From Pseudooceanicola onchidii (GTDB lineage: Bacteria > Pseudomonadota > Alphaproteobacteria > Rhodobacterales > Rhodobacteraceae), in contig NZ_SPUW01000002.1 of NCBI RefSeq assembly GCF_004959925.1, forward strand, positions 744,001 through 808,000: 64,000 bases of DNA, written 5' to 3'. Under the pieces are notes generated by a model. That model worked only from the letters and a program-made list of their open reading frames with translations, did no database searches and was not told where the DNA came from. This document shows positions 20,817 through 35,914 of this stretch, one piece after another. Position numbers and translations under genes: made by a program. Positions within the stretch are counted from its first letter, which is position 1. Each line of letters starts with the position of its first letter.

Positions 20817-22109
20817 TTACGCATTAACCTTTCCGCTGATCCAGGTCGCCCGCACCGCGCGGTCGTCGCCCATCATGATCGTCGCGAAAAGCTCCTCCCA
20901 GCTGTCCTCTGCCCGTTCGGCCCGTTGCGCGATCGCGGGGGTCGACGACAGGTTCAGCACAGCCAGATCGGCCTCCGCCCCCTTGGTCAGCGCGCCGATC
21001 CGGTCGCCCATCCCAAGCGCATGGGCCGACCCGGCCGTGGCCAGCCAGATCAGCTGAGCCGCGTGCAGGGGGGTTCCGCGTAACTGCCCGATTTCATAGG
21101 CAGAAGCCATCGTGCGCAGCATCGAGAATGACGACCCGCCGCCGGTGTCCGTGGCCAGTCCGACGCGCACACCGGCCCCCGTCAGCCCCGCCATGTCGAA
21201 CAGCCCCGAGCCGATGAAGGTGTTCGACGTCGGGCAATGCACGAGCCCCGCGCCGACCTCTCTCAGCCGGTCGCGTTCACGATCCTCCAGGTGAATCGCA
21301 TGGCCATAAAGCCCGTTCGCCCCCAGCAGCCCATGCGCCTCGTAGGTGTCCAGATAGTCCCGCGCGGTCGGGTAGAGCGACTTTACCCATTCGATTTCAT
21401 CAGTCTGTTCAGATAGATGCGTCTGCATCAGGCAATCGGGGTGTTCCGCCCAAAGCGCCCCCATGGCCGCCATCTGGTCGGGGGTGGAGGTCGGCGAAAA
21501 CCGCGGCGTGATCGCATAGGACAGGCGGTCCACGCCGTGCCATTTCTCCAAGAGCGCCTTGCTGTCGTCATAGGCCGATTGCGCGGTGTCCTGCAGCCCC
21601 TCGGGCGCGTTGCGGTCCATGCAGGTCTTGCCCGCCACGATCCGCTGCCCCCGCGCCTGCGCCTCGGCCATCAGGGCATCCACCGATGCGGGGTGAATCG
21701 TGCAGAAAGAACAGACGGTTGTGGTGCCGTGGGCCGCCGTCAGATCAAGGTACCGCGCGGCGATTTTGGCGGCGTAACCCGGGTCGGCAAAACGCATCTC
21801 CTCGGGGAAGGTGTAGGTGTTGAGCCAGTCGATCAGCCGCTTGCCCCAGGAGGCGATGATGGCGGTCTGCGGATAATGCACGTGGGCATCGACGAAGCCG
21901 GGGCAGATCAGATCTTTTCCGTAAGCGATTTCGGTGACTTGCGGCCAATTCTGCCGCAGCACCTCGGCCGGGCCGATATCCGCGATCCGCCCGCCTTCCA
22001 GCATCACGCCCCAGCCATCCTCGATCCGCAGCGCCTCTTCGGGCGGCAGGTCGAACGGCGAACCAAGGGTGCGCAGCACGCGGCCGGTCAGCAGGGTAGG
22101 TTGGGGCAT
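20817..22109 (-). CDS. guaD: Guanine deaminase
   Basis: This 430-residue amidohydrolase starts MPQPTLLTGRVLRTLGSP. It has the metal motif DAHVHYPQTAIIASWG (HxH at about residues 73-75), MQTHLSEQTDEIEWVK, and the aspartate in GLATDTGGGSSFSML. These are hallmarks of GuaD, which turns guanine into xanthine and ammonia. GGAG eight bases before the ATG supports this start. It faces the 8-oxoguanine deaminase gene tail to tail. Together with the BMP importer the window holds purine uptake and its first catabolic steps. Confidence 0.95.
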   Translation of the reverse strand: MPQPTLLTGRVLRTLGSPFDLPPEEALRIEDGWGVMLEGGRIADIGPAEVLRQNWPQVTEIAYGKDLICPGFVDAHVHYPQTAIIASWGKRLIDWLNTYTFPEEMRFADPGYAAKIAARYLDLTAAHGTTTVCSFCTIHPASVDALMAEAQARGQRIVAGKTCMDRNAPEGLQDTAQSAYDDSKALLEKWHGVDRLSYAITPRFSPTSTPDQMAAMGALWAEHPDCLMQTHLSEQTDEIEWVKSLYPTARDYLDTYEAHGLLGANGLYGHAIHLEDRERDRLREVGAGLVHCPTSNTFIGSGLFDMAGLTGAGVRVGLATDTGGGSSFSMLRTMASAYEIGQLRGTPLHAAQLIWLATAGSAHALGMGDRIGALTKGAEADLAVLNLSSTPAIAQRAERAEDSWEELFATIMMGDDRAVRATWISGKVNA

Positions 22110-22241
22110 TTGGGGTCTCCGGTTCCGCATTGCAGCGTAGCCTCTGGGCGCAGGGTCGTAAACGGCCACGACCTGCCGCCCGGGGCATTGTTTTCATCAA
22201 GCTTTGTCCTTTATGAGAGGAGCAAGCAGAAGGAGCACCGC

Positions 22242-23660
22242 ATGACCGACGGCGACGAAGAGATCAAGGAAAAGGACGATCTCTTGCCCGAGGACGAGGC
22301 GGAGGTCGAAGAGGACGGCTATACGCTCGACCGGAAGACCATCGCGGCCATCCTGTTCTCTGTCGACGCCGATGACCGGGACAAGCTGGTCGAGCTGATG
22401 GAGCCGCTGCACGCGGCCGACATCGCCGACCTTCTGGAACAGATCAACGCCTATGACCGGCGGCGCCTGATCGAGCTTTACGGCAAGGAATTCGATGGTG
22501 AAATCCTGTCCGAACTGGGCGAGTCGATCCGGGAGGAGGTCATCTCGGTCCTCAATCCCGAAGTGCTGGCCGACGCGGTTCGAGAGCTTGACTCGGATGA
22601 CGTCGTCGACCTGGTCGAGGATCTTGAGGACGAACAGCAGGTGGCTATCCTCGGCGCGCTCGAGGAAAGCGACCGGGCGGCCGTCGAACAGGCGCTGTCC
22701 TATCCCGAGGAATCCGCAGGCCGCCTCATGCAGCGCGAGGTCGTCGCGGTGCCCGAGTTCTGGAATGTCGGTCAAGCCATTGATTACATGCGGGAACGTG
22801 ACGGTCTGCCCGAGCAATTCTATCACGTCATTCTGACCGATCCGCGGTTCAAGCCGGTGGCGCATGTCACGCTAGGCAAACTGATGGCCTCAAAGCGGGC
22901 GACCCCGCTGATGGAGATCACGGAGCCCGGGTTCATGACCTTCGAGGCGACCGAGGACGAGGGCGACGTCGCCTATGCCTTCAACCAGTACCACCTGATT
23001 TCCGGCCCCGTGGTCGATGAAAACGACCGGCTGGTCGGCGTCATCACCATCGACGACGCGATGATCGTGCTGGACGAGGAACACGACGAGGACATGCTGC
23101 GTCTGGCGGGTGTGAGCGAGGAAAGCTCGCTGACCGACCGCGTGGTCGAGACGACCAAGCGGCGTTTCCCGTGGCTGGCGGTGAACCTTGTGACGGCGAT
23201 CCTCGCGTCGCTGGTGATCGCGCAGTTCGAAGCCACGATCGCCGAATTCGTGGCGCTGGCGGTGCTGATGCCGATCGTTGCCTCAATGGGCGGGAACGCG
23301 GGCACGCAGTCGCTGACCGTTGCGGTAAGATCCATTGCGACCAAGGACTTGACCGGCGCGAACGTCTGGCGGGTCATCCGCCGTGAATGCCTTGTGGGGC
23401 TGGTGAACGGGGTGATTTTCGCGGTGGTGATGGGGATCGTGGGGATCCTCTGGTTTGGCTCTCCGGGGCTGGGGTACGTGATCGCGGCGGCGATGGTGAT
23501 CAACCTTGTCGTGGCCGGTCTGGCGGGCACGGTGATCCCGGTGGTGCTGGAACGCGTGGGCGTCGACCCGGCGCTGGCTTCGGGGGCCTTTGTCACCACG
23601 GTGACGGATATCGTTGGCTTTTTCGCCTTCCTCGGGCTGGCAGGGGTGATCCTGCTGTGA
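22242..23660 (+). CDS. mgtE: Magnesium transporter MgtE
   Basis: This 472-residue channel-type Mg2+ transporter has an acidic N-terminal extension, the MgtE_N superhelical domain (about residues 35-140), a CBS pair (about 145-270) and five C-terminal membrane helices. The pore motif PIVASMGGNAGTQSL is present. Mg2+ binding to the N and CBS domains closes the pore in characterised members. AGGAG precedes the ATG at 22242. The stop overlaps the start of the next gene. Confidence 0.95.
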   Translation: MTDGDEEIKEKDDLLPEDEAEVEEDGYTLDRKTIAAILFSVDADDRDKLVELMEPLHAADIADLLEQINAYDRRRLIELYGKEFDGEILSELGESIREEVISVLNPEVLADAVRELDSDDVVDLVEDLEDEQQVAILGALEESDRAAVEQALSYPEESAGRLMQREVVAVPEFWNVGQAIDYMRERDGLPEQFYHVILTDPRFKPVAHVTLGKLMASKRATPLMEITEPGFMTFEATEDEGDVAYAFNQYHLISGPVVDENDRLVGVITIDDAMIVLDEEHDEDMLRLAGVSEESSLTDRVVETTKRRFPWLAVNLVTAILASLVIAQFEATIAEFVALAVLMPIVASMGGNAGTQSLTVAVRSIATKDLTGANVWRVIRRECLVGLVNGVIFAVVMGIVGILWFGSPGLGYVIAAAMVINLVVAGLAGTVIPVVLERVGVDPALASGAFVTTVTDIVGFFAFLGLAGVILL

Positions 23661-24214
23661 CCGGGGATCCCAAGGCTGCCGCCCGGGCCGAGGCCTTCGC
23701 GCGTCGCAAAGAGGCCCATGCGCTGGATCGCGGCGCGGCGTCTGGCGTGCTGTCCGAGGTGCTGGCGGGCTATCGCGGTGTGCCTTTGTCGGGCTATCTG
23801 CCGATCCGGACGGAAATCGACCCCCGCCCCGCCATGGCCGAGGCCGCGGCGCATGGGGTGGTCGGCGTGCCGGTGATCGCGGCGGCGGGCCAACCGCTTG
23901 ATTTCGCGACATGGGTGCCGGACGGCCCGCTGGTGCCGGGGCCCTTCGGGGCAGAGGTGCCCGAGGTCATCGTGCCGATGGTGCCGCAGATCCTGATCGT
24001 GCCGCTGGTGGCCTTTGACCGCAAGGGCGGGCGTCTGGGCTATGGCGGCGGGTTCTATGACCGGACGCTGGAAGGCCTGCGTGCGCGTGGCCCGGTGTTG
24101 GCGATCGGATTTACCTATGCGGCGCAGGAACTTGACGGCCTGCCGCTGGAGCCGACGGATCAACCGCTCGACATGATCGTGACGGATCACGGGGTGATCG
24201 AGGTGGGGGCGTAG
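23657..24214 (+). CDS. 5-formyltetrahydrofolate cyclo-ligase
   Basis: From a GTG whose GTGA overlaps the mgtE stop, this is a 185-residue protein of the 5-FTHF cyclo-ligase family. Features are the GYLPIRTEIDPRPAM region, the basic nucleotide loop GGRLGYGGGFYDRTL near residue 124, and the end LPLEPTDQPLDMIVT. It converts 5-formyl-THF to 5,10-methenyl-THF with ATP. Coupling to mgtE is tight but functionally unexplained. Confidence 0.93.
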   Translation: MTGDPKAAARAEAFARRKEAHALDRGAASGVLSEVLAGYRGVPLSGYLPIRTEIDPRPAMAEAAAHGVVGVPVIAAAGQPLDFATWVPDGPLVPGPFGAEVPEVIVPMVPQILIVPLVAFDRKGGRLGYGGGFYDRTLEGLRARGPVLAIGFTYAAQELDGLPLEPTDQPLDMIVTDHGVIEVGA

Positions 24215-24232
24215 GCGCAGCCCCCTCCCCAT

Positions 24233-24255
24233 CCCTCCCCCGTGGCGGGGGAGGG
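24233..24255 (+). other. GC-rich hairpin upstream of aroA
   Basis: CCCTCCCCC and GGGGGAGGG form a 9-bp perfect stem around a GTGGC loop in the gap between the cyclo-ligase gene and aroA. No T-run follows, so it may be a weak terminator or a simple intergenic hairpin. Confidence 0.5.
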
Positions 24256-24338
24256 GGCCGCGCCGGCCAGCGCCCGCACCCCATGGACGCCCCGGACCCT
24301 CCGCGCTATGACGTCCTGCACCACGAAGGAGGCCCGAC

Positions 24339-25685
24339 ATGTCCGCCCATGGCACCCCGATCCCGATGATGTCCGAGGCCGCTGGCCCGCTGACCGGCAC
24401 CGCCGATGTTCCGGGCGACAAGTCGATCTCTCACCGGTCGCTGATCCTTGGCGCGATGGCCGTCGGGGAAACCCGGATTTCCGGCCTGCTTGAAGGGCAG
24501 GACGTGCTGGATACGGCCAAGGCGATGCAGGCCTTTGGCGCGGACGTGGAAAACCTTGGTGACGGCAACTGGCGGGTGCATGGCGTGGGCGTCGGCGGCT
24601 TTGCCGAACCGGGCAATGTCATCGACTGTGGCAATTCCGGCACCGGCGTGCGGCTGATCATGGGGGCCATGGCGACCTGCCCGATCACCGCGACCTTCAC
24701 CGGCGACGCGAGCCTCAACAAGCGGCCGATGGCGCGGGTGACCGACCCCCTGGCGCTGTTCGGAACGCAGGCGGTCGGGCGCGAGGGCGGGCGACTGCCC
24801 ATGACCATCGTGGGCGCCAAGGATCCTGTGCCGGTGCGCTATACCGTGCCCGTGCCTTCGGCGCAGGTGAAATCCGCGGTGCTGCTGGCCGGGCTGAACG
24901 CCCCGGGCCAGACCGTGGTGATCGAGAAAGAAGCGACCCGCGATCACACCGAACGGATGCTGGCGGGGTTCGGCGCGACCATCACGGTCGAGGACACCGA
25001 CGAGGGCCGCGTCATCACCCTGACCGGCCAGCCGGAGCTGGTGCCGCAGACCATCGTCGTGCCGCGGGATCCGTCCTCGGCCGCGTTTCCGGTCTGTGCG
25101 GCGCTGATCGTGCCGGGATCAGACGTTCTGGTGCCCAACATCGGGCTGAACCCGACCCGCGCGGGCCTGTTCGAGACGCTGCGCGAGATGGGCGCGGACC
25201 TGACCTACGAGAACCCGCGCGAAGAGGGCGGAGAGCCGGTGGCCGACCTGCGCGCGAAATTCTCGCCCGACCTCAAGGGGATCGAAGTGCCGCCCGAGCG
25301 CGCGGCCTCGATGATCGACGAATATCCGGTGCTGTCGGTCGTCGCGGCCTTTGCCGAAGGGCAGACGGTGATGCGCGGGGTCAAGGAGCTAAGGGTCAAG
25401 GAATCCGACCGGATCGAGGCGATGGCCACAGGCCTGCGCGCCAATGGCATCGAGGTCGAGGATGGCGAGGACTGGTGGATCGTCACCGGTCGTGGCCATG
25501 GCAAGGTTCCGGGCGGCGCGACGGTGGAAACCCATCTGGACCACCGGATCGCGATGTCCTTCCTCTGCCTCGGCATGGCGTCGGACGCGCCGGTCACGCT
25601 GGATGACGGTCAGCCGATCGCGACGTCCTTTCCGATCTTCGAGCCGCTGATGACCACGCTCGGCGCCCGCATCCGGCGGGTGTGA
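24339..25685 (+). CDS. aroA: 3-phosphoshikimate 1-carboxyvinyltransferase (EPSP synthase), class II type
   Basis: This 448-residue enzyme transfers enolpyruvate from PEP to shikimate 3-phosphate. It carries GDKSISHRS (26-34), [14 protein letters not shown] and NPTR. This set marks the class II (CP4-like) branch rather than the E. coli class I branch. At the key loop it reads GNSGTGVR, with Gly101 where CP4 EPSPS has Ala100. It starts the conserved aroA-cmk-rpsA-ihfB-trpF neighbourhood. Confidence 0.96.
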
Positions 25686-25707
25686 CGGCGCGGTCGGGGG
25701 CGGCGCG

Positions 25708-26265
25708 ATGATCTTCTGGGCCCTGACCGGCGCGGCGGTGACGCTGTTTCTTGCCATGATGGTGCTGACGGTGCCGACCCTGCTGACCGAGGCGGCGGGG
25801 ATGCTGCCCTTCGACCTGCGCCCTTGGGGCTACTCGGTCGAGGCGGTTCAAAGCTATCTCGTCACCATCAGCGAAGAGGGGCTGGCGACCTACCTTGGCC
25901 CGCAGCATCAGCTGGACCTGATCTTTCCGCTGGTGCTGGCGATGGCCTTCATCACGGGGTTCCGGCGGTTCCTTGGCCCGGTCGGCGGGCTGGTGATGAC
26001 GGTGGTGGCAGTTGCCGGGGCCGTGGCGGATTATTCGGAAAACGCGCTGGTCGCGGCGATCCTGACCGAACCGGCGACGGTGGAACAGGTCACGCTGGCC
26101 TCGGCCATGACCATCGCGAAATGGCTGTTCTACCTGGTCTGTCTGGGCGTCATGGCCTGGATCGGGGTGCGGGCCTGGCGGTCGCGGCCGCGCAAGACCC
26201 CGAAACGCAAGACCGGCGGGACGAAGCGCAAGGCCGCGCCCAAGGGCGGCAAGGCTGGCAAATGA
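25708..26265 (+). CDS. Polytopic membrane protein with basic C-terminal tail, function unknown
   Basis: This 185-residue protein has four likely membrane segments: about residues 2-25, 73-88, 93-112 and 135-158. It ends in a lysine-rich tail (PRKTPKRKTGGTKRKAAPKGG) that should face the cytoplasm. It sits between aroA (22 bases) and cmk (45 bases) and is probably co-transcribed. I do not recognise a named family. Similar small membrane proteins occur at this spot in Rhodobacteraceae, but this is recollection rather than a search. Confidence 0.8.
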   Translation: MIFWALTGAAVTLFLAMMVLTVPTLLTEAAGMLPFDLRPWGYSVEAVQSYLVTISEEGLATYLGPQHQLDLIFPLVLAMAFITGFRRFLGPVGGLVMTVVAVAGAVADYSENALVAAILTEPATVEQVTLASAMTIAKWLFYLVCLGVMAWIGVRAWRSRPRKTPKRKTGGTKRKAAPKGGKAGK

Positions 26266-26310
26266 TGCGCAAGGGTGGCATCAAGGGCGTCCACATCGGG
26301 TGAGGGCCAC

Positions 26311-26934
26311 ATGAGACTGACAATCGCCATCGACGGGCCGGCCGCAGCCGGGAAGGGCACGCTGAGCCGCGCGCTGGCGGAGGCCTTCGGGCTGGCGCAC
26401 CTTGATACCGGTCTGATCTATCGCGCGGCCGGGCGGCGTACGCTGGACGGGACCCCCGCGCTTGAGGCCGCGCAGTCGCTCACGGCCGCGGATCTTGAGG
26501 CCGATGACCTGCGTACGCCCGACGTCGCCCGGGCCGCGTCCGTCGTGGCCGCCATTCCGGACGTGCGCGCGGCGCTGGTGGATTTCCAGCGCGCCTTCGC
26601 CCGGCGGCAGGGGGGCGCGGTGCTGGACGGGCGCGACATCGGCACGGTCATCTGCCCCGAAGCCGAGGTGAAGTTCTTCGTCACTGCCTCGGACGATGTG
26701 CGGGCCGAACGCCGGTTCATCGAGCTGCGGGACGGCGGCCACGACGTGACCCTGGGCCAGGTGCTGGCCGACCTGCGCGAACGCGACGCCCGTGACAGTG
26801 CCCGTGCCGCCGCGCCCCTGAAACCGGCCGAGGATGCGGTGGTGCTGGATACCTCGGGTATGGATATCAACGCGGTGGTGGCCGCCGCGATCGCCCTGGT
26901 GACGGACCGGACCGGGATCGCCCCTGTCGCCTGA
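26311..26934 (+). CDS. cmk: Cytidylate kinase
   Basis: This 207-residue P-loop kinase starts [17 protein letters not shown] (Walker [10 protein letters not shown]) and has [10 protein letters not shown], the [19 protein letters not shown] motif and [13 protein letters not shown]. It phosphorylates CMP and dCMP. The ATG at 26311 was chosen over an upstream GTG-type extension because homology begins at MRLTIAI. In many alphaproteobacteria rpsA follows directly; here 5.3 kb of other genes intervene. Confidence 0.95.
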
Positions 26935-27065
26935 TCGGCACGACTGTCCTCAAATTGTCCGCAAACCCGTGTTGATGCCGGGGTTTGTCCATTATCCTGC
27001 CACGGTTGCATGTGACACTGGCCGTCAGAGCCGGGCATTTGCGCGGGCAGGACAAGGCGTCAGCC

Positions 27066-28520
27066 ATGACACAGGCAGAATACATCGAACCCTTGGGCGA
27101 TGCGCGCCCGGTGCTGGTCTGCGACCTCGACGGGGTGCTGATCCGGACTGAAATGCTGGATGAAACCTTCTGGGCGTCGGTGGCGGCAGGCTGGACCGCC
27201 CCTCTGGTCGCGATTCGGGCGCTGATGCGGGGGCGCGCGGCGCTCAAGCAGGTGCTGGCCGATCGCGGGCCGGTCGACCCCGAGCACTTGCCCTATCGGC
27301 CCGAGATCGTGGCGCGCCTGACCGCGTGGCGTGCGGCAGGCGGGCGGACGGCGCTGGTCACCTCTGCCGATCAGGCCGTGGCCGAAGGGATCGCCGATCA
27401 CCTGCAGGTCTTTGACGAGGTGCATGGATCGAACGGCCGCCGCAACCTGCGGGCGGCGACCAAGGCGGCCTTCCTTGTCGATCGCTTCGGCGAAGGCGGC
27501 TACAACTACATCGGCGGCGTGGCGACGGACCGCCCGGTCTGGGCCACGGCCACGATGGCGACGACCATCGGGCTGACCGATGCGGCGCGGGCCAAGGTCA
27601 CCGCGCTTGGCAAGGTCGCCCACCTGGACCGCGAGCCGACGAATTTCCCCCGTGCCCTGATGCGCGCCATGCGGCCGCATCAGTGGCTGAAGAACCTGCT
27701 GATCTTCCTGCCGCTTCTGGCCGCGCACCAGCTGGATGCCGTGTCGCTGGCGCAGGCGGTGCTGGCCTTCATCACCTTCGGGCTGGTGGCCTCGTCCGTC
27801 TATGTGCTGAACGACCTGCTGGATCTGCCGTCGGACCGGGCCCATCCGCGCAAACGCAACCGGCCCTTCGCTTCGGGACATCTGGCGCTGCGCCACGGGC
27901 TGTGGCTTGCGCCGGGGCTGTTTGGCGCGGGCGTCGTCTTTGGCGCGCTGCTGGGCTGGCGGTTCCTGGCGGTGCTGGGCGTCTACTATGCCACGACGAC
28001 GGCCTATTCGCTCTGGCTCAAGCGGCAGCCGGTGGTCGATATCTGCACCCTGGCGGCGCTTTATTCGCTGCGGATCGCGGCGGGGGCGGCGGCGACGGCG
28101 ATCCCGATCTCGATCTGGCTGATGGCCTTCGCGATCTTCTTTTTCTTCTCGCTTGCGGCGGTGAAACGGCAGGCGGAACTGGTGGATGCGGTCAAGTCCA
28201 GGCGCGCGCTCAACACCCGGCGCGGCTACCGGGCCGAGGATCTGCCGCTGGTCGCCATGATGGCGGTCGGGGCGGGCTATGTCTCGGTCCTTGTCATGGC
28301 GCTTTACGTGAATTCCCCGGCCGTCACGGCGCTTTATTCGACGCCCGAGGTGCTGTTCGGCATCTGCGTCGTGCTGCTGTTCTGGATCAGCCGCGTGGTG
28401 ATGTTGGCGCACCGGGGCGAGATGCACGACGATCCGGTGGTCTTTGCCGCCCGTGACAAGGTCAGCCTTGGCGCCTTTGCACTGGTCTGCGCGATCGTGG
28501 CGCTTGGGGCGCAGATATGA
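27066..28520 (+). CDS. HAD-UbiA fusion: decaprenyl-phosphate phosphoribosyltransferase-like
   Basis: This 484-residue protein has two parts. Residues 15-170 form a HAD-type domain: motif I CDLDGVL with D20 and D22, Ser100 in ALVTSAD, Lys133, and D155 in GGVATD. Residues 200-484 form a UbiA prenyltransferase with MRPHQWLKNLLIFLPL and the metal site NDLLDLPSD (249-257). UbiA proteins of this branch (mycobacterial Rv3806c, rhizobial NoeC) add phosphoribose to decaprenyl phosphate. The fused HAD domain could then remove the 5-phosphate (inference). The first acidic residue of HAD motif IV is replaced by Gly151. It leads a four-gene coupled operon. Confidence 0.88.
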   Translation: MTQAEYIEPLGDARPVLVCDLDGVLIRTEMLDETFWASVAAGWTAPLVAIRALMRGRAALKQVLADRGPVDPEHLPYRPEIVARLTAWRAAGGRTALVTSADQAVAEGIADHLQVFDEVHGSNGRRNLRAATKAAFLVDRFGEGGYNYIGGVATDRPVWATATMATTIGLTDAARAKVTALGKVAHLDREPTNFPRALMRAMRPHQWLKNLLIFLPLLAAHQLDAVSLAQAVLAFITFGLVASSVYVLNDLLDLPSDRAHPRKRNRPFASGHLALRHGLWLAPGLFGAGVVFGALLGWRFLAVLGVYYATTTAYSLWLKRQPVVDICTLAALYSLRIAAGAAATAIPISIWLMAFAIFFFFSLAAVKRQAELVDAVKSRRALNTRRGYRAEDLPLVAMMAVGAGYVSVLVMALYVNSPAVTALYSTPEVLFGICVVLLFWISRVVMLAHRGEMHDDPVVFAARDKVSLGAFALVCAIVALGAQI

Positions 28521-28921
28521 GCCTGCCTGGCCTGATTTTGCGCTACGGCGCCTTTGCCGTGCTGGCGGTGCTGGTCAATCTGGCCGTGCAGCGCGGCGTG
28601 CTGGCCGTGGGCTTGGGTCTGCTGGCGGCGCTGGTGGCCGGCACGGCAGCGGGGCTGGTGGTGAAGTATGTGCTCGACAAGGTCTGGATCTTTGGCGACC
28701 GCACGGCCGGTGTCGCGGCGGAGGGGCGGAAGTTCACGCTCTATACGCTGATGGGCGTTGCCACGACGGCGATCTTCTGGGGGACCGAGGCTGCCGCCTG
28801 GGCGATCTGGCAGACCGACATGGCGCGCGAGGTCGGGGCGGTTGTCGGGCTGGCGGTCGGTTATGTGGTGAAATACCGGCTCGACCGGCGGTTCGTCTTT
28901 GGCGGGGGGCTGGCGGCATGA
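28517..28921 (+). CDS. GtrA family membrane protein
   Basis: This 134-residue protein has four membrane segments and the GtrA features VKYVLDKVWIFGDR after helix 2 and VKYRLDRRFVFGGG at the end. GtrA proteins are proposed to flip or bind polyprenyl-linked sugars; Rv3789 is the member in the mycobacterial arabinogalactan locus. The ATG overlaps the stop of the UbiA gene (ATGA), and its own stop overlaps the next start the same way. Its place between the UbiA and DprE1-like genes supports a role with decaprenyl-phosphoryl pentose. Confidence 0.88.
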   Translation: MSLPGLILRYGAFAVLAVLVNLAVQRGVLAVGLGLLAALVAGTAAGLVVKYVLDKVWIFGDRTAGVAAEGRKFTLYTLMGVATTAIFWGTEAAAWAIWQTDMAREVGAVVGLAVGYVVKYRLDRRFVFGGGLAA

Positions 28922-30234
28922 GGCGCGATGTCTCGGGCTGGGGCCGGTTCCCACGGATCGAGGCCGAGGTCGCGCGGCCCCGCGACGAGGCGAGCCTGCG
29001 TGATCTGCTGGGGCGCGGCCCCGTGATCGCGCGCGGCAATGGCCGCAGCTATGGCGACAGCGCGGCGCAGCCCAAGGGCACCGTGGACATGCGCGGTTTC
29101 GCCCGGATGCTGGAGTTCGACGCCACAACCGGCGTGCTGACCGCCGAGGCCGGGGTGATCCTGGGCGACGTCATCGCCGCCTTCCTGCCGCGCGGATGGT
29201 TTCCGCCGGTGACGCCGGGGACCAAGTTCGTGACCCTTGGCGGGATGATCGCGGCGGATGTGCATGGCAAGAACCATCGGCGCGACGGGTCCTTTGGTCG
29301 GCACCTTGCGTGGGTCGACGTGATGGGCCCGGACGGCACTGTCACGCGCGCGGCGCCGGGGGATGAGCTTTTCGCCATGACCGTCGGCGGCATGGGGCTG
29401 ACCGGGGTGATCCTGCGCTGCGCGGTGCGGCTGATGCCCGTCACGACCGGCTGGATCCGGCAGGAGATGCACGTGACCCCGGATCTGGATGCCGCGATGC
29501 AGGTGTTCGAGGCGGCGCAGTCGCAATATGCCGTGGCCTGGTTCGATTGCCTGGGGCGCGGCGCCTCGCTTGGCCGGTCGCTGGTGATGCTGGGGGATCA
29601 TGCGGCGGTGGCGGATCTGCCCGCCGCGCGTCAGGCCCGGCCGTTCGAGGTGCCGCTGCGGCGGCGCAAGTCGGTGCCGCTGGATGTGCCGGGGGGCGCG
29701 CTCAACCGCCACACGATCCGCGCTTTCAACGCGGTCTACCATGCCGCCAATGCCCGCAAGGCGGGGGCGTCTCTGGTGGATTGGGACCGGTACTTCTATC
29801 CGCTGGACGCGGTGCAGGACTGGAACCGGATCTATGGCCGCAAGGGGTTCGCGCAGTACCAGGTGGTGCTGCCGCTGGCCTCGGCGCGGGCGGGTCTTGC
29901 GGCGCTGCTCGACACCATTGCCAAGGCGGGGCAGGGGTCTTTCCTGGCCGTGCTCAAGCGGCTCGGGCCGCAGGACAGCCGCCTGTCCTTCCCGATGGAG
30001 GGCTACACTCTGGCGCTGGATTTCCCGGCGCGCGCATCGGCGCTGGCATTGCTGGACCGGCTGGACCGCATCACGCTGGATCATGGTGGGCGGTACTACC
30101 TGGCCAAGGACGCGCGGGTCAGTGCCGAAACGCTGCATCGGGCCGACCCCCGCGTGCCGGACTTCCGGGCGGCCCGGGTGGCACAAAACATGGCGGGCTT
30201 TGCCTCCGCCCAATCGGAAAGGCTGGGGCTATGA
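28918..30234 (+). CDS. FAD-dependent decaprenylphosphoryl-ribose 2'-oxidase, DprE1-like
   Basis: This 438-residue protein has an N-terminal VAO/PCMH FAD domain (ARGNGRSYGDSAAQ at 38-51, HGKNH at 116-120) and a C-terminal cap domain. Alignment by eye to M. tuberculosis DprE1 places Lys397 (AKDAR) at the catalytic Lys418. Ala366 (GYTLALDFP) falls at Cys387, the residue attacked by benzothiazinones. DprE1 oxidises decaprenyl-phosphoryl ribose at C2. It is coupled by ATGA overlaps at both ends. FAD-linked oxidase is certain; the exact substrate is inferred from the cluster. Confidence 0.88.
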   Translation: MRRDVSGWGRFPRIEAEVARPRDEASLRDLLGRGPVIARGNGRSYGDSAAQPKGTVDMRGFARMLEFDATTGVLTAEAGVILGDVIAAFLPRGWFPPVTPGTKFVTLGGMIAADVHGKNHRRDGSFGRHLAWVDVMGPDGTVTRAAPGDELFAMTVGGMGLTGVILRCAVRLMPVTTGWIRQEMHVTPDLDAAMQVFEAAQSQYAVAWFDCLGRGASLGRSLVMLGDHAAVADLPAARQARPFEVPLRRRKSVPLDVPGGALNRHTIRAFNAVYHAANARKAGASLVDWDRYFYPLDAVQDWNRIYGRKGFAQYQVVLPLASARAGLAALLDTIAKAGQGSFLAVLKRLGPQDSRLSFPMEGYTLALDFPARASALALLDRLDRITLDHGGRYYLAKDARVSAETLHRADPRVPDFRAARVAQNMAGFASAQSERLGL

Positions 30235-30959
30235 GCCGACAGGTGACACTCCTTGGCGCGCGGTCGGATATCGCGCTGGCCTGCGCGCATGAATTCGCGG
30301 CGGCCGGCGACCTGGTGACCCTGGCCGCACGCCGGGCCGAGACGCTGACGGCGGACGCGAGGGACATCGAACTGCGCCACGGCGGCACGGTCACGCTGCG
30401 CGAGTTCGACGCGCTGGCGCCGGACCATGCGGAATTCGTCGCGGGCGCGGACCTGCCCGACGTGGTGATCTGCGCCGTGGGCCTGCTGGGCGACCAGACG
30501 TCAGACGAACGGGACGCGGCGGCGGCAAGTGCGGTGTTCAGAACGAATTTCGAAGGCCCGGCGCTGGCGCTGGCAGCCTATGCCAATGCGATGGAGGCAC
30601 GGGGATCGGGCGTGATCGTCGGGATTTCCTCGGTCGCGGGGGATCGCGGACGGGCGACGAATTATATCTACGGGTCCGCCAAGGCGGGCTTCACCGCCTA
30701 TCTGTCGGGCCTGCGCAACCGGCTGGCCAAGACAGGCGTGCACGTGGTCACGGTCAAGCCCGGGTTCGTGGCGACGCAGATGACCGAACACCTCGATCTT
30801 CCCGACAAATTGACCGCACAACCGGCCGAGATTGGCCGAGCCGTGAAAACAGCCGTTGAGCGGCGCAAGGACGTGATCTATGTGCGCGGCGTCTGGCGGC
30901 TGATCATGGGAATCATCCGCGCGATTCCGGAGCGCGTGTTCAAGAAACTATCCATCTGA
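30231..30959 (+). CDS. Short-chain dehydrogenase, DprE2-like
   Basis: This 242-residue SDR has the nucleotide loop LLGARSDIALACA near the N-terminus, catalytic serine in ISSVAGDRG (133-134), Tyr147 and Lys151 in Y-G-S-A-K, and a C-terminal hydrophobic amphipathic tail. DprE2 reduces the 2-keto intermediate to decaprenyl-phosphoryl arabinose with NADH. The ATGA overlap with the DprE1-like gene and the shared operon make this pairing convincing, though SDR specificity cannot be proven by sequence. Confidence 0.88.
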   Translation: MSRQVTLLGARSDIALACAHEFAAAGDLVTLAARRAETLTADARDIELRHGGTVTLREFDALAPDHAEFVAGADLPDVVICAVGLLGDQTSDERDAAAASAVFRTNFEGPALALAAYANAMEARGSGVIVGISSVAGDRGRATNYIYGSAKAGFTAYLSGLRNRLAKTGVHVVTVKPGFVATQMTEHLDLPDKLTAQPAEIGRAVKTAVERRKDVIYVRGVWRLIMGIIRAIPERVFKKLSI

Positions 30960-31052
30960 TCGGGGCAGACCGGGGCAACCGGCACACCCCCCGAGGGGCT
31001 GAGAGTGGGAGGAACAATGAGCGACGCGAGAGACCAAACATACAGGTGAACC

Positions 31053-31208
31053 ATGAGTATCCAGACCACCCCCCTGACCCCGTCGGCCCCGCAGCCGAAT
31101 GCCCAGCCGATGCCGTCCGCCCCGCAGGCGGCGCAGATCGACTGGCGGCAGATTGATTTCGCCGCCGACTGCCTGATCGTGCGCAGCGCGCCCACGTCGA
31201 ACGACTGA
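31053..31208 (+). CDS. Small protein A, 51 aa, with W-R-x-x-D-F-x-x-D-C-L-I block
   Basis: The frame gives 51 residues: a Thr/Pro/Gln-rich N-terminal half without signal peptide or membrane segment, then W31-R32, D35-F36 and D39-C40-L41-I42, then a polar tail. AGG six bases upstream of the ATG is a reasonable ribosome site. A 10-codon upstream frame ends 3 bases before it. A second gene 200 bases downstream has the same block, which argues strongly that both are real. No known family is recognised. A modified peptide precursor, a regulatory peptide and a small structural protein are all possible. Confidence 0.72.
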   Translation: MSIQTTPLTPSAPQPNAQPMPSAPQAAQIDWRQIDFAADCLIVRSAPTSND

Positions 31209-31213
31209 TCTTC

Positions 31214-31237
31214 GGGCCGCCTGTCAGGCGCGGCTTT
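31214..31237 (+). terminator. Possible weak terminator after small protein A
   Basis: GCCGCCTG and CAGGCGCGGC can pair with a 2-base bulge and a very tight loop, followed by TTTC. It lies just after the small gene's stop. A further hairpin at 31245-31264 (GGCGGG with CCCGCC) has no T-run. Confidence 0.35.
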
Positions 31238-31405
31238 CGAAGGGGGCGGGCTGCCCGGCCCGCCACCCCGCCACATTGACGCCCGATCGGTTAATTCCCG
31301 ATCAGAAACGGTCTGTCCGGCATTCGCTTCTCAGAGATTTCTCGGAACCGGTGTACCATGTACCCGTTGATTTATTGAAAATCTGACACTTCAGGAGTGA
31401 ATTTC

Positions 31406-31573
31406 ATGTCCTATATCTTTGACCAGGCGAGCGTCACGCCGCCGTCGTCCGACACCCCCAAGCGCCGCCCCGTTCCCGAGAAAGAGTGGCGGAAATTTGA
31501 CTTCGGGATGGATTGCCTGATCCCGGCAGAAGATTACGCCCTGCCGAAAAATCACGAGAACTACCGGGACTGA
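31406..31573 (+). CDS. Small protein B, 55 aa, paralogue of small protein A
   Basis: The frame encodes 55 residues: MSYIFDQ start, Pro/Ser-rich linker with KRRP, then W28-R29, D32-F33 and D36-C37-L38-I39, then an acidic and Asn-rich tail. Eight of the twelve positions of the block match small protein A at identical spacing, including the single cysteine of each protein. AGGAG eight bases before the ATG is a good ribosome site, and the AT-rich stretch upstream suggests its own promoter. No known family is recognised. It converges on the DoxX-like gene, with only 3 bases between them. Confidence 0.75.
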   Translation: MSYIFDQASVTPPSSDTPKRRPVPEKEWRKFDFGMDCLIPAEDYALPKNHENYRD

Positions 31574-31576
31574 TCC

Positions 31577-31963
31577 CTAGCGGCGCCGGACGGGCCAGAC
31601 CGTCCGCACCGCCGGATCCCGCAGCCACAGACCGGCCCACATCACGGTGCCGAGGTAGAGGCTGAACAAGGTGTGGCTGAACAGCGGACTGCCGGCCCTG
31701 ATCTGGGTCACCATGGCCCCACCCAGCACCGCCATCGACAGGCACGCACCCAAAAGGCCGGTGCGCGGGACCAGATACAGCACCGTGCACAGCAATTCGA
31801 TCACTCCGATCAGCAGGATCGGGCTGTCCGGCCAGCCAAGGTCCGCCAGCGTCTGCGACCCGATGTCCGACACGAACTTCGGCATCACCGAGGCGCCCAG
31901 CATGAACAGGCCGTAAAGGATCGACAGGGCCCAGCCGGCCCGGATCATCATCTTGTCCGACAT
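31577..31963 (-). CDS. DoxX-like family membrane protein
   Basis: This 128-residue protein has four membrane segments and the DoxX-like pattern: ILYGLFMLGASVMPKF near the N-terminus, LIGVIELLCTVLYLVPRTGLLGA in the middle and a final helix LYLGTVMWAGLWL. DoxX-like proteins of this small class are quinone- or redox-associated but poorly defined. A perfect inverted repeat lies directly upstream and may bind a repressor. Monocistronic. Confidence 0.85.
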   Translation of the reverse strand: MSDKMMIRAGWALSILYGLFMLGASVMPKFVSDIGSQTLADLGWPDSPILLIGVIELLCTVLYLVPRTGLLGACLSMAVLGGAMVTQIRAGSPLFSHTLFSLYLGTVMWAGLWLRDPAVRTVWPVRRR

Positions 31964-32288
31964 CGCGGCGCTCTCTCACTTATTAACAATATAGTTAATC
32001 ATGTGTGCCCCAAGGTCTTTGCCCTGTCAATCGGGCGGCATTTGCCGGTCGTCTTGCAGGGGCCAGAGATCCCCAAAGCGTGCATATAAAGGCGATGAGG
32101 TGTTGATTTCTTCGGATCACGGGGGTATCTGGCGCGGGTCGACAAGGCGCAAAGCCGCGATGAAGAGAGCGAGCAGGGTCGGAATCACCGGCCCTCTTTC
32201 CATTTGCGGCGGCTCTACTGACCAACCCCAAGACCGGCGGAGACAACCGCTCGGCCAGCATAAACCTTGAAAAGGACATCAAAGCCAC
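31964..32288 (+). promoter_or_regulatory. Divergent promoter region of DoxX-like gene and rpsA
   Basis: This 325-base gap holds no gene I can support. At its left end is the inverted repeat of the DoxX-like promoter. The right part must hold the rpsA promoter and a leader that could exceed 150 bases; AAGGA lies about 11 bases before the rpsA ATG. Several weak hairpins are possible, but none matches an RNA family I know. Confidence 0.5.
31982..31999. promoter_or_regulatory. Inverted repeat ATTAAC-N6-GTTAAT upstream of the DoxX-like gene
   Basis: A perfect 6+6 inverted repeat with centre AATATA starts 19 bases upstream of the DoxX-like ATG. It has the size and symmetry of an operator for a small dimeric repressor of the ArsR, MarR or HxlR kind. 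No such gene lies nearby. Confidence 0.5.
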
Positions 32289-33971
32289 ATGGCTCAGAAC
32301 GCATCCATGGAGGAATTCGAAGCCCTCCTTAATGAAAGCTTCGAAATGGACACGCCCGAAGAAGGGTCTGTTGTCAAAGGCAAGGTCATCGCAGTTGAAG
32401 CGGGCCAGGCCATCATCGACGTCGGCTACAAGATGGAAGGCCGCGTTGATCTGAAAGAATTCGCGAACCCCGGTGAAGCGCCCGAGATCTCTGTCGGTGA
32501 CGAGGTCGAAGTCTACCTGCGCGCCGCCGAAAACGCCCGTGGCGAAGCCGTCATCTCGCGCGAGATGGCCCGCCGCGAAGAAGCCTGGGACCGCCTGGAA
32601 AAAGCCTACGCCGACGACGCCCGTGTCGAAGGCGCGATCTTCGGCCGCGTCAAGGGTGGCTTCACCGTCGACCTCGGCGGCGCCGTGGCCTTCCTGCCCG
32701 GTTCGCAGGTTGACGTCCGCCCCGTGCGCGACGCAGGCCCGCTCATGGGTCTCAAGCAGCCGTTCCAGATCCTCAAGATGGACCGTCGTCGTGGCAACAT
32801 CGTCGTGTCCCGCCGCGCGATCCTCGAAGAGAGCCGTGCCGAACAGCGTGCCGAAGTCATCTCGAACCTTGAAGAAGGTCAGACGGTCGACGGCGTGGTC
32901 AAGAACATCACCGAGTACGGCGCATTCGTCGACCTCGGCGGCGTTGACGGCCTGCTGCACGTCACCGACATGGCATGGCGCCGCGTCAACCACCCGTCCG
33001 AGATCCTGTCGATCGGCGAGACCGTGAAGGTCCAGGTCATCAAGATCAACAAGGACACGCACCGTATCTCCCTCGGCATGAAGCAGCTGCAGGAAGATCC
33101 GTGGGATCTGGTTGCCGCCAAGTACCCGCTGTCTTCGGTCCACCAGGGCCGCGTGACCAACATCACCGACTACGGCGCGTTCGTCGAGCTGGAGCCCGGT
33201 GTCGAAGGTCTGGTCCACGTCTCCGAGATGTCCTGGACCAAGAAGAACGTGCACCCCGGCAAGATCGTGTCGACCTCGCAGGAAGTCGACGTCATGGTTC
33301 TGGAAATCGACGGTGCCAAGCGCCGCGTGTCCCTTGGCCTCAAGCAGACCATGCGCAACCCGTGGGAAGTGTTCGCTGAAAAGCACCCCGAGGGCACCGT
33401 TGTCGAAGGCGAAGTCAAGAACATCACCGAATTCGGTCTGTTCGTCGGCCTCGACGGCGACATCGACGGCATGGTTCACCTGTCGGACCTGTCGTGGGAC
33501 GAGCGTGGCGAAGACGCCATCCAGAACTACCGCAAGGGCGACATGGTTCAGGCCGTGGTGTCCGAAGTCGACATCGACAAGGAACGCATTTCGCTGTCCA
33601 TCAAGAACGTCGGCGGCGACAAGTTCGCCGAAGCCGTTGGTGGCGTGAAGCGCGGTTCGATCATCACCGTCAACGTGACGGCGATCGAAGACGGCGGCAT
33701 CGAAGTGGAATACGAAGGCATGAAGTCCTTCATCCGCCGCTCCGACCTGTCGCGCGACCGTTCCGAACAGCGCCCCGAGCGTTTCTCGGTCGGTGACCAC
33801 GTCGACGTCCGCGTCACCAACGTCGACAGCAAGACCCGTCGTCTTGGCCTGTCGATCAAGGCACGCGAGATCGCAGAAGAGAAGGAAGCCGTGGAACAGT
33901 ACGGTTCCTCCGACTCGGGCGCATCGCTTGGCGACATTCTGGGCGCAGCCCTGAAGTCCGGCGACGAGTAA
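32289..33971 (+). CDS. rpsA: 30S ribosomal protein S1
   Basis: This 560-residue protein consists of six S1 (OB-fold) repeats. Repeats 3-6 are easily seen through the recurring pattern G-x-V-x-x-I-T-E/D-[YF]-G-A/L-F-V (DGVVKNITEYGAFVDLGG near 200; later copies at about 285, 375 and 460). S1 binds mRNA leaders on the 30S subunit. Codon use is strongly biased to C-ending codons, as in highly expressed genes. A terminator follows. It is normally preceded by cmk in this lineage. Confidence 0.97.
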   Translation: MAQNASMEEFEALLNESFEMDTPEEGSVVKGKVIAVEAGQAIIDVGYKMEGRVDLKEFANPGEAPEISVGDEVEVYLRAAENARGEAVISREMARREEAWDRLEKAYADDARVEGAIFGRVKGGFTVDLGGAVAFLPGSQVDVRPVRDAGPLMGLKQPFQILKMDRRRGNIVVSRRAILEESRAEQRAEVISNLEEGQTVDGVVKNITEYGAFVDLGGVDGLLHVTDMAWRRVNHPSEILSIGETVKVQVIKINKDTHRISLGMKQLQEDPWDLVAAKYPLSSVHQGRVTNITDYGAFVELEPGVEGLVHVSEMSWTKKNVHPGKIVSTSQEVDVMVLEIDGAKRRVSLGLKQTMRNPWEVFAEKHPEGTVVEGEVKNITEFGLFVGLDGDIDGMVHLSDLSWDERGEDAIQNYRKGDMVQAVVSEVDIDKERISLSIKNVGGDKFAEAVGGVKRGSIITVNVTAIEDGGIEVEYEGMKSFIRRSDLSRDRSEQRPERFSVGDHVDVRVTNVDSKTRRLGLSIKAREIAEEKEAVEQYGSSDSGASLGDILGAALKSGDE

Positions 33972-33993
33972 TCGCACCGCCTGAAAGATCAGA

Positions 33994-34020
33994 AAGCCCC
34001 GGTTCGCGCCGGGGCTTTTT
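33994..34020 (+). terminator. Terminator of rpsA
   Basis: The stem AAGCCCCGG with CCGGGGCTT is followed by TTTTT, 22 bases after the stop codon. Confidence 0.92.
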
Positions 34021-34120
34021 CTTTCCCTATTATCCACCAAACGAAGTCAGGCCCGCAGCCACCACGGCTCGCTCCTCCAGCGCAGGAAATATCGGAAGCA
34101 AACGATGATAGGAGTTGGGC

Positions 34121-34609
34121 TTAGAAGTCCTTGAAGTTCCGACCACGGCTCCAATCGCCAAGATAGCTACCCATCCATGCAGAAAATGAGTCCGAGACGC
34201 GCTCAGTCTCGTCGAAGTCGTGATCCCAGAAGTAGATCGGTGCCGATGCGACCGATTGACCTTTAAGGTCATTTTCATCGACGCAGAACTTGCTTCCACC
34301 GGCGTCATTGCCGATGGCGATCAGATTGCCCGGCATCCCGATTTCACGCCAGCCAAGTGTCTCATCCACGACCTCTTCGGGCGAGAGAAGGTCAGCCAGA
34401 TCACGCAAGTCCAGTTCCTTGTCAACGATGGCGCTGAGCAGGGCCAAGGTGGGAGAAGGCAATCCGACGGCCAACACCGAAGACCTGTAATCTTCAGGAA
34501 ACACCACACCAAGCTTGTGCTCTGCGGCGAGTAAATCGTCAGCATTGACTGTAGTTGGCGGGTAGTCCGGATGGCACCATTTCCGCGTAAAGTCGTTTAG
34601 CGTATTCAT
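34121..34609 (-). CDS. SMI1/KNR4 (SUKH) family protein
   Basis: This 162-residue protein has a SUKH fold signature: LLAAEHKLGVVFPEDYRSSVLAVG at about residues 26-49, and MPGNLIAIGNDAGGSKFCVDEN, followed by IYFWDHDFDE. SUKH proteins often act as immunity proteins against polymorphic or contact-dependent toxins. No toxin gene is present. Base composition is visibly less GC-rich than that of the flanking rpsA, and an insertion sequence lies beside it, so acquisition by transfer is likely. Confidence 0.88.
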   Translation of the reverse strand: MNTLNDFTRKWCHPDYPPTTVNADDLLAAEHKLGVVFPEDYRSSVLAVGLPSPTLALLSAIVDKELDLRDLADLLSPEEVVDETLGWREIGMPGNLIAIGNDAGGSKFCVDENDLKGQSVASAPIYFWDHDFDETERVSDSFSAWMGSYLGDWSRGRNFKDF

Positions 34610-34643
34610 GTCCGGTCACCACCCACACTTGCGAACCAATAGA

Positions 34644-35765
34644 CGAGCATCAGACTCCCCGGGGGAAAGATGTCAACGCCCGCAATCGGAACGTTGCGCA
34701 ATTCCCTCACAGCGGCTTACGGCCAGCGAAGCCCCCACGCCGGTGTCCGTCTCATCTGGCGGCCAACGGCGCAACGGAGCAGCCCGCGCATCTGGTCGAC
34801 GACCGGGATTGGCTTCCAGACAATGGTAGCTTCGGCAGTAGCATGCCCCGAAGGCGATTTTCGGGTCCGGACCTTCGTCGTCGGCACACGGTGGTTCCAA
34901 CGCCACAGGATCTCATCGAGATACCGCTGAAGGTGCTGTCTCCCCAGCCGATGGTAGACCCCGATCAACGCGCGCTGCACTACAGCGTTCACGGCCTCCA
35001 CGGTGTTGATATGCGCTCCGGTTCGGCGGTCGGCATATTCGTGCTTGTTGTGCTGCACCGTCATGTGCCCCGCAAAGGCGGTGCCGATTTTCTTGTAGGT
35101 CGAGTTCTTGTCGGTGATCATGACCGAGCCCAGGTCGATCCAATCTTTGATGACCGGCCCCATTGTCCGCCCCTGGGCATTCGGAACGAGAACGGCGCGC
35201 GCCTGGCCATTTCGAGCGGCAGCCACAAGGACGATCGGCTTTCCGGTCCCGCGCCCCCTCTTGTTCTTTACCCCGTGCTTGAACTTCGGCTTCCCACCGA
35301 CAAAGGCCTCATCGACCTCGACGACGCCGGACAACTGGCCGGCGATCCCCTCACGGTCGTCCATCAGTTCCCGGATCGCGTGGCCGAGCTTCCACGCCGT
35401 TTTCTGGTTCACCCCAAGGATGCGCGCCATGACGACGGATGAAATCCCCTTGGACGAAGTCAGCACGAGGAACATGGCGGCGATCCAGATGCGCAGGTCG
35501 AGCTTCGTCGCGTGGAGCGGCGTCTTCGTGGTGACGGTGAACTGCCGCCGACACTCCTTCTCGGCGCACTGGTAGAGACCGGCGCGCGGGGTGTCGCCCT
35601 GAAGCCGTGTCGAGCGCAAGCTGCCGCAATGCGGGCAGAAGCGATCCCCGGCCCAGATCGCCTGCTCGAGGAAGATCCTGGCATGGCGTTCGGTCGGCAT
35701 CTTCTTCCAGACATCACGCACGGACTTGAGTTCGGTGATCATGATCGAGCCTCGCTTTGGGGGAC
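34644..35765 (-). mobile_element. IS1595-family insertion sequence, ends tentative
   Basis: The transposase gene defines the element. The octamer CCAATAGA occurs at 34636-34643 and again at 35766-35773. This fits the 8-bp target duplication of IS1595 elements and would make a 1,122-bp element. However, the expected terminal inverted repeats do not line up at those borders; only a TCCCC...AAAG similarity is seen near both ends. Boundaries are therefore provisional. Confidence 0.45.
34717..35742 (-). CDS. IS1595 family transposase (ISXO2-like DDE)
   Basis: From the ATG at 35742 (MITELKSVRDVW) this gives 341 residues; an in-frame ATG at 35769 would add nine. An N-terminal zinc ribbon (FCPHCGSLRS, YQCAEKECRRQF) is followed by the ISXO2-like DDE domain. 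VVEVDEAFVGGK supplies the first Asp, SVMITDKNSTY the second, and the terminal region YLDEILWRWNHR is typical. The frame is intact, so the element may be active. The chosen start lies inside the proposed right border. Confidence 0.92.
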   Translation of the reverse strand: MITELKSVRDVWKKMPTERHARIFLEQAIWAGDRFCPHCGSLRSTRLQGDTPRAGLYQCAEKECRRQFTVTTKTPLHATKLDLRIWIAAMFLVLTSSKGISSVVMARILGVNQKTAWKLGHAIRELMDDREGIAGQLSGVVEVDEAFVGGKPKFKHGVKNKRGRGTGKPIVLVAAARNGQARAVLVPNAQGRTMGPVIKDWIDLGSVMITDKNSTYKKIGTAFAGHMTVQHNKHEYADRRTGAHINTVEAVNAVVQRALIGVYHRLGRQHLQRYLDEILWRWNHRVPTTKVRTRKSPSGHATAEATIVWKPIPVVDQMRGLLRCAVGRQMRRTPAWGLRWP

Positions 35766-35914
35766 CCAATAGATTGGCTCTTTCCTGAAAAGGCGAAGCG
35801 ACTACGTGATGGCCGTCGTTAGGCGCCGATGTGGCAACCTACATTGGACCCGTAGCAGATGATGCTTTGTTTCGTGGATAATGGCTTTTTCTTTTGCGCC
35901 TGATGCTTTGGCCG

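Follow-up and report, generated by a model that had tools for sequence, protein, structure and literature searches.

smA and smB, a pair of small proteins in Pseudooceanicola with a shared conserved block and a putative EcfG-type promoter at one member

smA and smB are neighboring genes in the 64-kb window, i.e., the whole stretch of DNA that was analyzed (Table 1). The initial annotation proposed two frames of 51 and 55 codons about 200 bases apart; its coordinates are right, and the gap between the genes is 197 bases. It also described a 12-residue block shared by the two proteins, which is indeed present in both, with identical W, R, D, F, D, C, L, and I residues at equal spacing (8 of 12 positions). 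Moreover, both proteins have the Pro-rich part that it saw ahead of the block (seven Pro in smA and five in smB, counted by eye), both genes have a plausible ribosome-binding site, each protein contains a single Cys residue, and neither contains a hydrophobic signal stretch by eye, in agreement with its view that a signal peptide is absent. In smB, the block is directly followed by the tail PAEDYALPK, which is common to four of the five smB proteins.

Table 1. Features of the smA/smB locus in window coordinates; the genes are given from the ATG to the end of the stop codon
Feature	Position	Strand	Basis
Operon of HAD-UbiA protein, DprE1-like FAD oxidase, and DprE2-like dehydrogenase (context, outside the family)	26985..30959	+	Pfam, synteny
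smA Shine-Dalgarno-like sequence AGGTGA	31044..31049	+	Sequence
smA, A-type family member, 51 codons	31053..31208	+	ORF; genus relatives; codon constraint
smA conserved block WRQIDFAADCLI	31143..31178	+	W, R, D, F, D, C, L invariant in 13/13 members
Putative EcfG-type promoter of smB, GGAAC-N16-CGTT	31344..31368	+	Position scan, nepR controls, consensus PMC6599016
smB Shine-Dalgarno-like sequence AGGAG	31393..31397	+	Sequence
smB, B-type family member, 55 codons	31406..31573	+	ORF; genus relatives; codon constraint
smB conserved block WRKFDFGMDCLI	31487..31522	+	Sequence comparison, codon constraint
rpsA (presumed), conserved right-hand neighbor	32289..33971	+	ORF, synteny

Two lines of evidence indicate that smA and smB almost certainly form a translated family. 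First, homologs with the block occur in other genomes. Profile A1, which consists of 13 rows taken from these genomes' own family sequences, matched 8 of 22 Pseudooceanicola genomes, with 13 genes in total (E ≤ 1.8e-15), and these E-values are not independent because the rows come from the genomes on which the profile was run. With smA as the lone query, six other genomes were recovered at E 1.9e-7 to 3.2e-4 and genome G164 at E 0.039. Because both the profile and the searches with smA alone recover relatives, the block shared by smA and smB is not a chance resemblance. Both genes are present in five genomes, i.e., that of the window (G000), P. batsensis (G154), a strain deposited as Primorskyibacter flagellatus (G156), P. 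nitratireducens (G161), and MAG SP158 (G165), while G153, P. pacificus (G162), and Oceanicola sp. 22II-s10i (G164) have a single gene; those relatives whose records carry names belong to Pseudooceanicola or are close to it. In the block W-R-x-x-D-F-x-x-D-C-L, the W, R, D, F, D, C, and L residues are invariant in all 13 members. The single Cys noted by the initial annotation, although correct for the two window proteins, is not a family trait, as four of the 13 members have two Cys residues and nine have one.

Second, the family is under codon-level constraint. The 13-codon core has a pN/pS of 0.309 when all 13 genes are taken together; the six A-like genes give 0.275, and the seven B-like genes give 0.185. 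Over 21 codons of four smB genes, a set that leaves out MAG SP158 with its differing tail, pN/pS is 0.075 (pS 0.63), as opposed to 0.703 for the ten codons preceding the block. In a 12-codon stretch, the ratio is 0.26 in frame and the alternative frames give 1.37 and 0.89, i.e., the constraint is confined to the proposed reading frame and acts on the protein. From these contrasts, the block is the constrained part and the remainder of the proteins is loose. The proposal that the two frames represent a new family of translated small proteins is, therefore, supported by block-bearing homologs in other genomes and by constraint at the codon level.

As far as our searches reach, the family appears to be confined to Pseudooceanicola. 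Profile searches of 293 Rhodobacteraceae genomes from other genera confirmed no member; matches in 14 other genomes of this family had E-values of 0.009 to 0.097, where no more than 22 candidates were scored for each genome. A single-protein search with smB in 149 genomes of the Rhodobacteraceae gave a best E of 0.0035 beyond the own genome, and many matches contained stop codons. Similarly, no member was confirmed in a sample of 385 genomes of Alphaproteobacteria (own genome included), in which six matches (E 0.009 to 0.018) agreed at 8 to 10 of 16 positions, or in plasmid and phage collections queried with smB and in viral contigs. A scan of genome contigs with the pattern [FY]DF[GA][MAE]DCL, which misses most A-type genes, gave 67 matches of which six were confirmed, all within the genus, and a regular expression for the block matched only genus loci among loci L001 to L096, a set that covers part of the smB-query matches. 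In a short rpsA tree, in which several nodes are weakly supported, carriers are scattered among noncarriers, which suggests that smA and smB are an old pair that was lost repeatedly. Genome G159 contains a weak A1 match (E 0.088) directly upstream of rpsA that reads CRGVDCAMDCLVP. Because the W and F residues of the block are replaced and an EcfG-type site is absent, this sequence is a probable decaying copy of smB; it is located about 490 to 210 bases before rpsA in locus L132.

The 13 members had no significant match in Pfam (best E 0.19) or PHROGs (best E 0.055) and no match to the NepR model PF18557 at E ≤ 1, and the two window proteins had no match in NCBIfam. A sequence search of the PDB returned nothing significant; its best match, mevalonate diphosphate decarboxylase (DFTEDCLI, E 1.5), was taken as chance. 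An AlphaFold2 model based on a 12-row alignment had a mean pLDDT of 65 and a pTM of 0.21 with two four-residue helical turns inside the block. This weak model supports no claim about a fold and is no proof of disorder; smA and smB are probably mostly unstructured outside the short turns in the block. We also considered that a second block-bearing protein in the own genome might be a partner that is mimicked by smA and smB; this idea was rejected because no such protein was found at E ≤ 10, and this search, thus, gives no pointer to a partner. In the open-license literature, we found no paper joining Pseudooceanicola with EcfG and, for broader topics, no title on the smA/smB family among the best matches.

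The genes upstream of smA are, in order, an aroA-type gene, a cytidylate kinase gene, and genes for a HAD-UbiA protein, an FAD-binding oxidase, and a short-chain dehydrogenase, as judged from Pfam; we take the last three to be UbiA, DprE1, and DprE2. Enzymes of the UbiA/DprE1/DprE2 type make the polyprenyl-phosphoryl-arabinose donor. Downstream of smB are a DoxX-like gene on the opposite strand and then the gene that we presume to encode ribosomal protein S1 (rpsA), of which a 94 to 97% identical gene is found at the same place in six named relatives. The DoxX-like gene (31577 to 31963) occupies this position in L092 and L096 as well; it was not found in L091, L093, L094, and L095. Beyond rpsA, a SUKH-type (SMI1/KNR4) gene lies beside an IS1595-type transposase (34121 to 35769); the two look like a recent insertion because neither has a match at the loci from the six named relatives. 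The Pfam matches of ten neighboring ORFs (21417 to 35769) include no modification enzyme, in agreement with the initial annotation, and no exporter. It had left a peptide precursor, a secreted signal, and a small regulatory protein open as functions. A precursor of a modified or secreted peptide would agree with the small size of the proteins and with a conserved stretch that is flanked by variable parts; however, given these neighbors, a conserved part that is central rather than N-terminal, and the lack of a hydrophobic signal stretch, this explanation is implausible in the extreme.

All five genomes with both genes have the order DprE2-smA-smB-rpsA. The family genes directly follow DprE2 or a DprE2 remnant in G153 and at the six named loci; rpsA comes next inside the locus at the latter six and is separated from the family gene by ∼1.6 kb in G153. 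Thus, the place after the arabinose-donor operon, the relevance of which had been left undecided, is conserved, but the operon itself is not. P. nitratireducens has no UbiA match between cmk and DprE1 (L093, 7296 to 7366). In MAG SP158 (77% complete), the interval between cmk and smA (L094, 9339 to 9524) contains neither UbiA nor DprE1 and only a small part of DprE2, and DprE1 was not found elsewhere in this genome; both small genes are nevertheless kept. These two genomes argue against the idea that smA and smB are accessory proteins of arabinose-donor synthesis that bind or tune UbiA, DprE1, or DprE2, with smB adjusting arabinosylation of envelope glycans under stress. This idea is favored by the fact that all seven relatives examined have the family next to DprE2 or a remnant of it, by the distribution of DprE1, and by the coincidence of the decayed G159 copy with absence of DprE1. 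DprE1 is present in 15 of the 22 genus genomes; eight of these have it shortly upstream of rpsA and oriented like rpsA, and the family is carried by seven of the eight. The exception, G168, has ∼230 bases between DprE2 and rpsA and no NepR match. In other genus genomes, DprE1 is far from rpsA or oppositely oriented. However, DprE1 is present in seven of eight carriers versus 8 of 14 noncarriers, a co-occurrence that is not decisive as proof of a common function, and 50 of 148 other sampled Rhodobacteraceae genomes contain a DprE1-like gene while no family member was found there. Altogether, we regard an accessory role in arabinose-donor synthesis as rather unlikely.

The initial annotation overlooked the putative EcfG-type promoter of smB and its absence at smA; EcfG is the sigma factor of the general stress response. 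The motif GGAAC...GTT first became visible as conserved in an alignment of the regions upstream of smB. Within the 150 bases before each ATG, GGAAC-N16-[C/T/G]GTT is present at −60 to −62 in 7 of the 13 family genes, with C in five sites, T in one, and G in one before the GTT; the site in the window starts at −62 and ends 37 bases ahead of the ATG. These seven comprise the complete set of five smB genes plus the genes present singly in P. pacificus and 22II-s10i. The latter two proteins read DCLIP and are counted as B-like partly for this reason and partly because of the EcfG-type site itself. In the remaining six genes (five smA genes and the G153 gene), no EcfG-type site was found within 150 bases. 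A search of the window for GGAAC-N15..18-CGTT gave two matches versus 1.9 expected by chance. Because a single match in the window is, thus, expected by chance, the case for the promoter rests on its repeated position, and the sites are not independent because the genomes are related. Counted on both strands, the window and the six named loci together (184,711 bases) contain nine GGAAC-N17-GTT sequences, seven of which are the sites described here. As a control, all nepR loci in the genus (20 of 20) have GGAAC-N16/17-CGTT upstream of nepR on the same strand. The EcfG consensus described for Sphingomonas melonis is GGAAC-N17-20-GTT, which is overrepresented at distances up to 100 bp from the start (PMC6599016). 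In the own genome, NepR, an EcfG-like sigma factor, and PhyR are encoded side by side. NepR was matched in 20 of the 22 genus genomes, the exceptions being G168 and P. pacificus (66% complete), which carries a B-like gene. Two findings speak against a simple stress explanation: 13 of the 20 NepR-bearing genomes are without the smA/smB family, and G153, which is NepR bearing, has only an A-type gene. Altogether, the recurrent position and the nepR controls make it very probable that smB is under EcfG control, and this putative promoter allows the list of possible functions to be narrowed. In the closely related genomes G151 and G160 (L139 and L141), GGAAC-N16-CGTT is also found 112 bases before rpsA; these matches may be due to chance in a conserved rpsA leader.

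EcfG regulons contain small RNAs, e.g., GsrN in Caulobacter, and the smB transcript might therefore function mainly as a regulatory RNA that is induced by stress and codes for a peptide as well. Because the constraint is at the codon level and specific for one frame, we consider this highly improbable; in addition, Rfam gave no match in 30900 to 32300, which excludes described families only. A candidate RNA element, GGGGCTGAGAG at 30995 to 31005, resembled part of a TPP box and was dismissed, as Rfam gave no match. In another scenario, the stress-type promoter at smB and the invariance of the Cys residue and two Asp residues in all 13 members would reflect a thiol or metal peptide in which Cys and the neighboring Asp react with oxidants or bind metal during stress. 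This scenario leaves the equally invariant W, R, F, and L residues unexplained, and a lone Cys, as in nine of the 13 members, is unlike common metal sites; we judge it improbable.

Because smB carries a putative EcfG-type promoter, we suggest that smA and smB are most likely small stress-response proteins. In the PhyR-NepR-EcfG pathway as described in PMC5830050, phosphorylated PhyR binds NepR and in that way frees EcfG, and smB would then be made. By contrast, smA would probably be made by read-through from the DprE operon, as its ATG is 93 bases past the DprE2 stop codon and no terminator-like site was found between DprE2 and smA. We suggest that the block W-R-x-x-D-F-x-x-D-C-L is a short motif by which the proteins dock to a single protein partner, that smA is the basal ligand and smB the stress-induced ligand of this same partner, and that smB adds its own conserved tail. 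The odds that the block is a docking motif with a shared partner are about even. The more specific scenario in which basal and stress-induced peptides from duplicated neighboring genes use the common 11-residue motif to occupy or compete for one conserved partner, i.e., an EcfG-coupled switch at the peptide level, is tentative and on balance doubtful. For the reading as a whole, i.e., a genus-restricted pair in which the block serves in docking, smA is expressed with the upstream operon, and smB is induced by stress, we estimate a probability of roughly 0.5. In Rhodobacter sphaeroides, the function of PhyR is described as specialized for membrane stress and not as general (PMC5830050); therefore, the regulon may differ in Rhodobacterales.

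Similar to genes of the EcfG (SigT, RpoE2) general stress regulons of Alphaproteobacteria, smB has a promoter of the GGAAC-N17-GTT type at the usual distance, and many EcfG targets of Sphingomonas melonis are "hypothetical proteins" (PMC6599016). Different from such genes, the smA/smB family occurs in one genus and includes a sister gene without this promoter. smA and smB resemble the anti-sigma factor NepR in being small and, by the proposed model, in belonging to the same pathway; however, they are unrelated to NepR in sequence, and NepR is encoded elsewhere in the genome. They also resemble lineage-restricted small stress proteins in being short, narrowly distributed, and absent from the libraries searched, but differ from these in being paralogous, in their split promoter type, and in having seven motif residues that are invariant. 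Annotation easily overlooks the small proteins of bacterial stress regulons, and few studies have addressed the general stress response in Rhodobacterales; a 2018 paper states that the role of PhyR had not previously been analyzed in any member of this group (PMC5830050). smA and smB provide a testable case with an invariant seven-residue motif and a sister gene lacking the EcfG-type site as a built-in control, and P. batsensis and P. nitratireducens are named species with both genes.

A further observation concerns the region directly upstream of smA. By eye, a 10-codon frame (MSDARDQTYR, 31017 to 31049) with its own GGAGG-like site ends within the Shine-Dalgarno sequence of smA, and matching frames are found in place in L092 (10 codons, MKTRANHSYR) and L094 (8 codons). 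This short frame could reflect translational coupling or chance.
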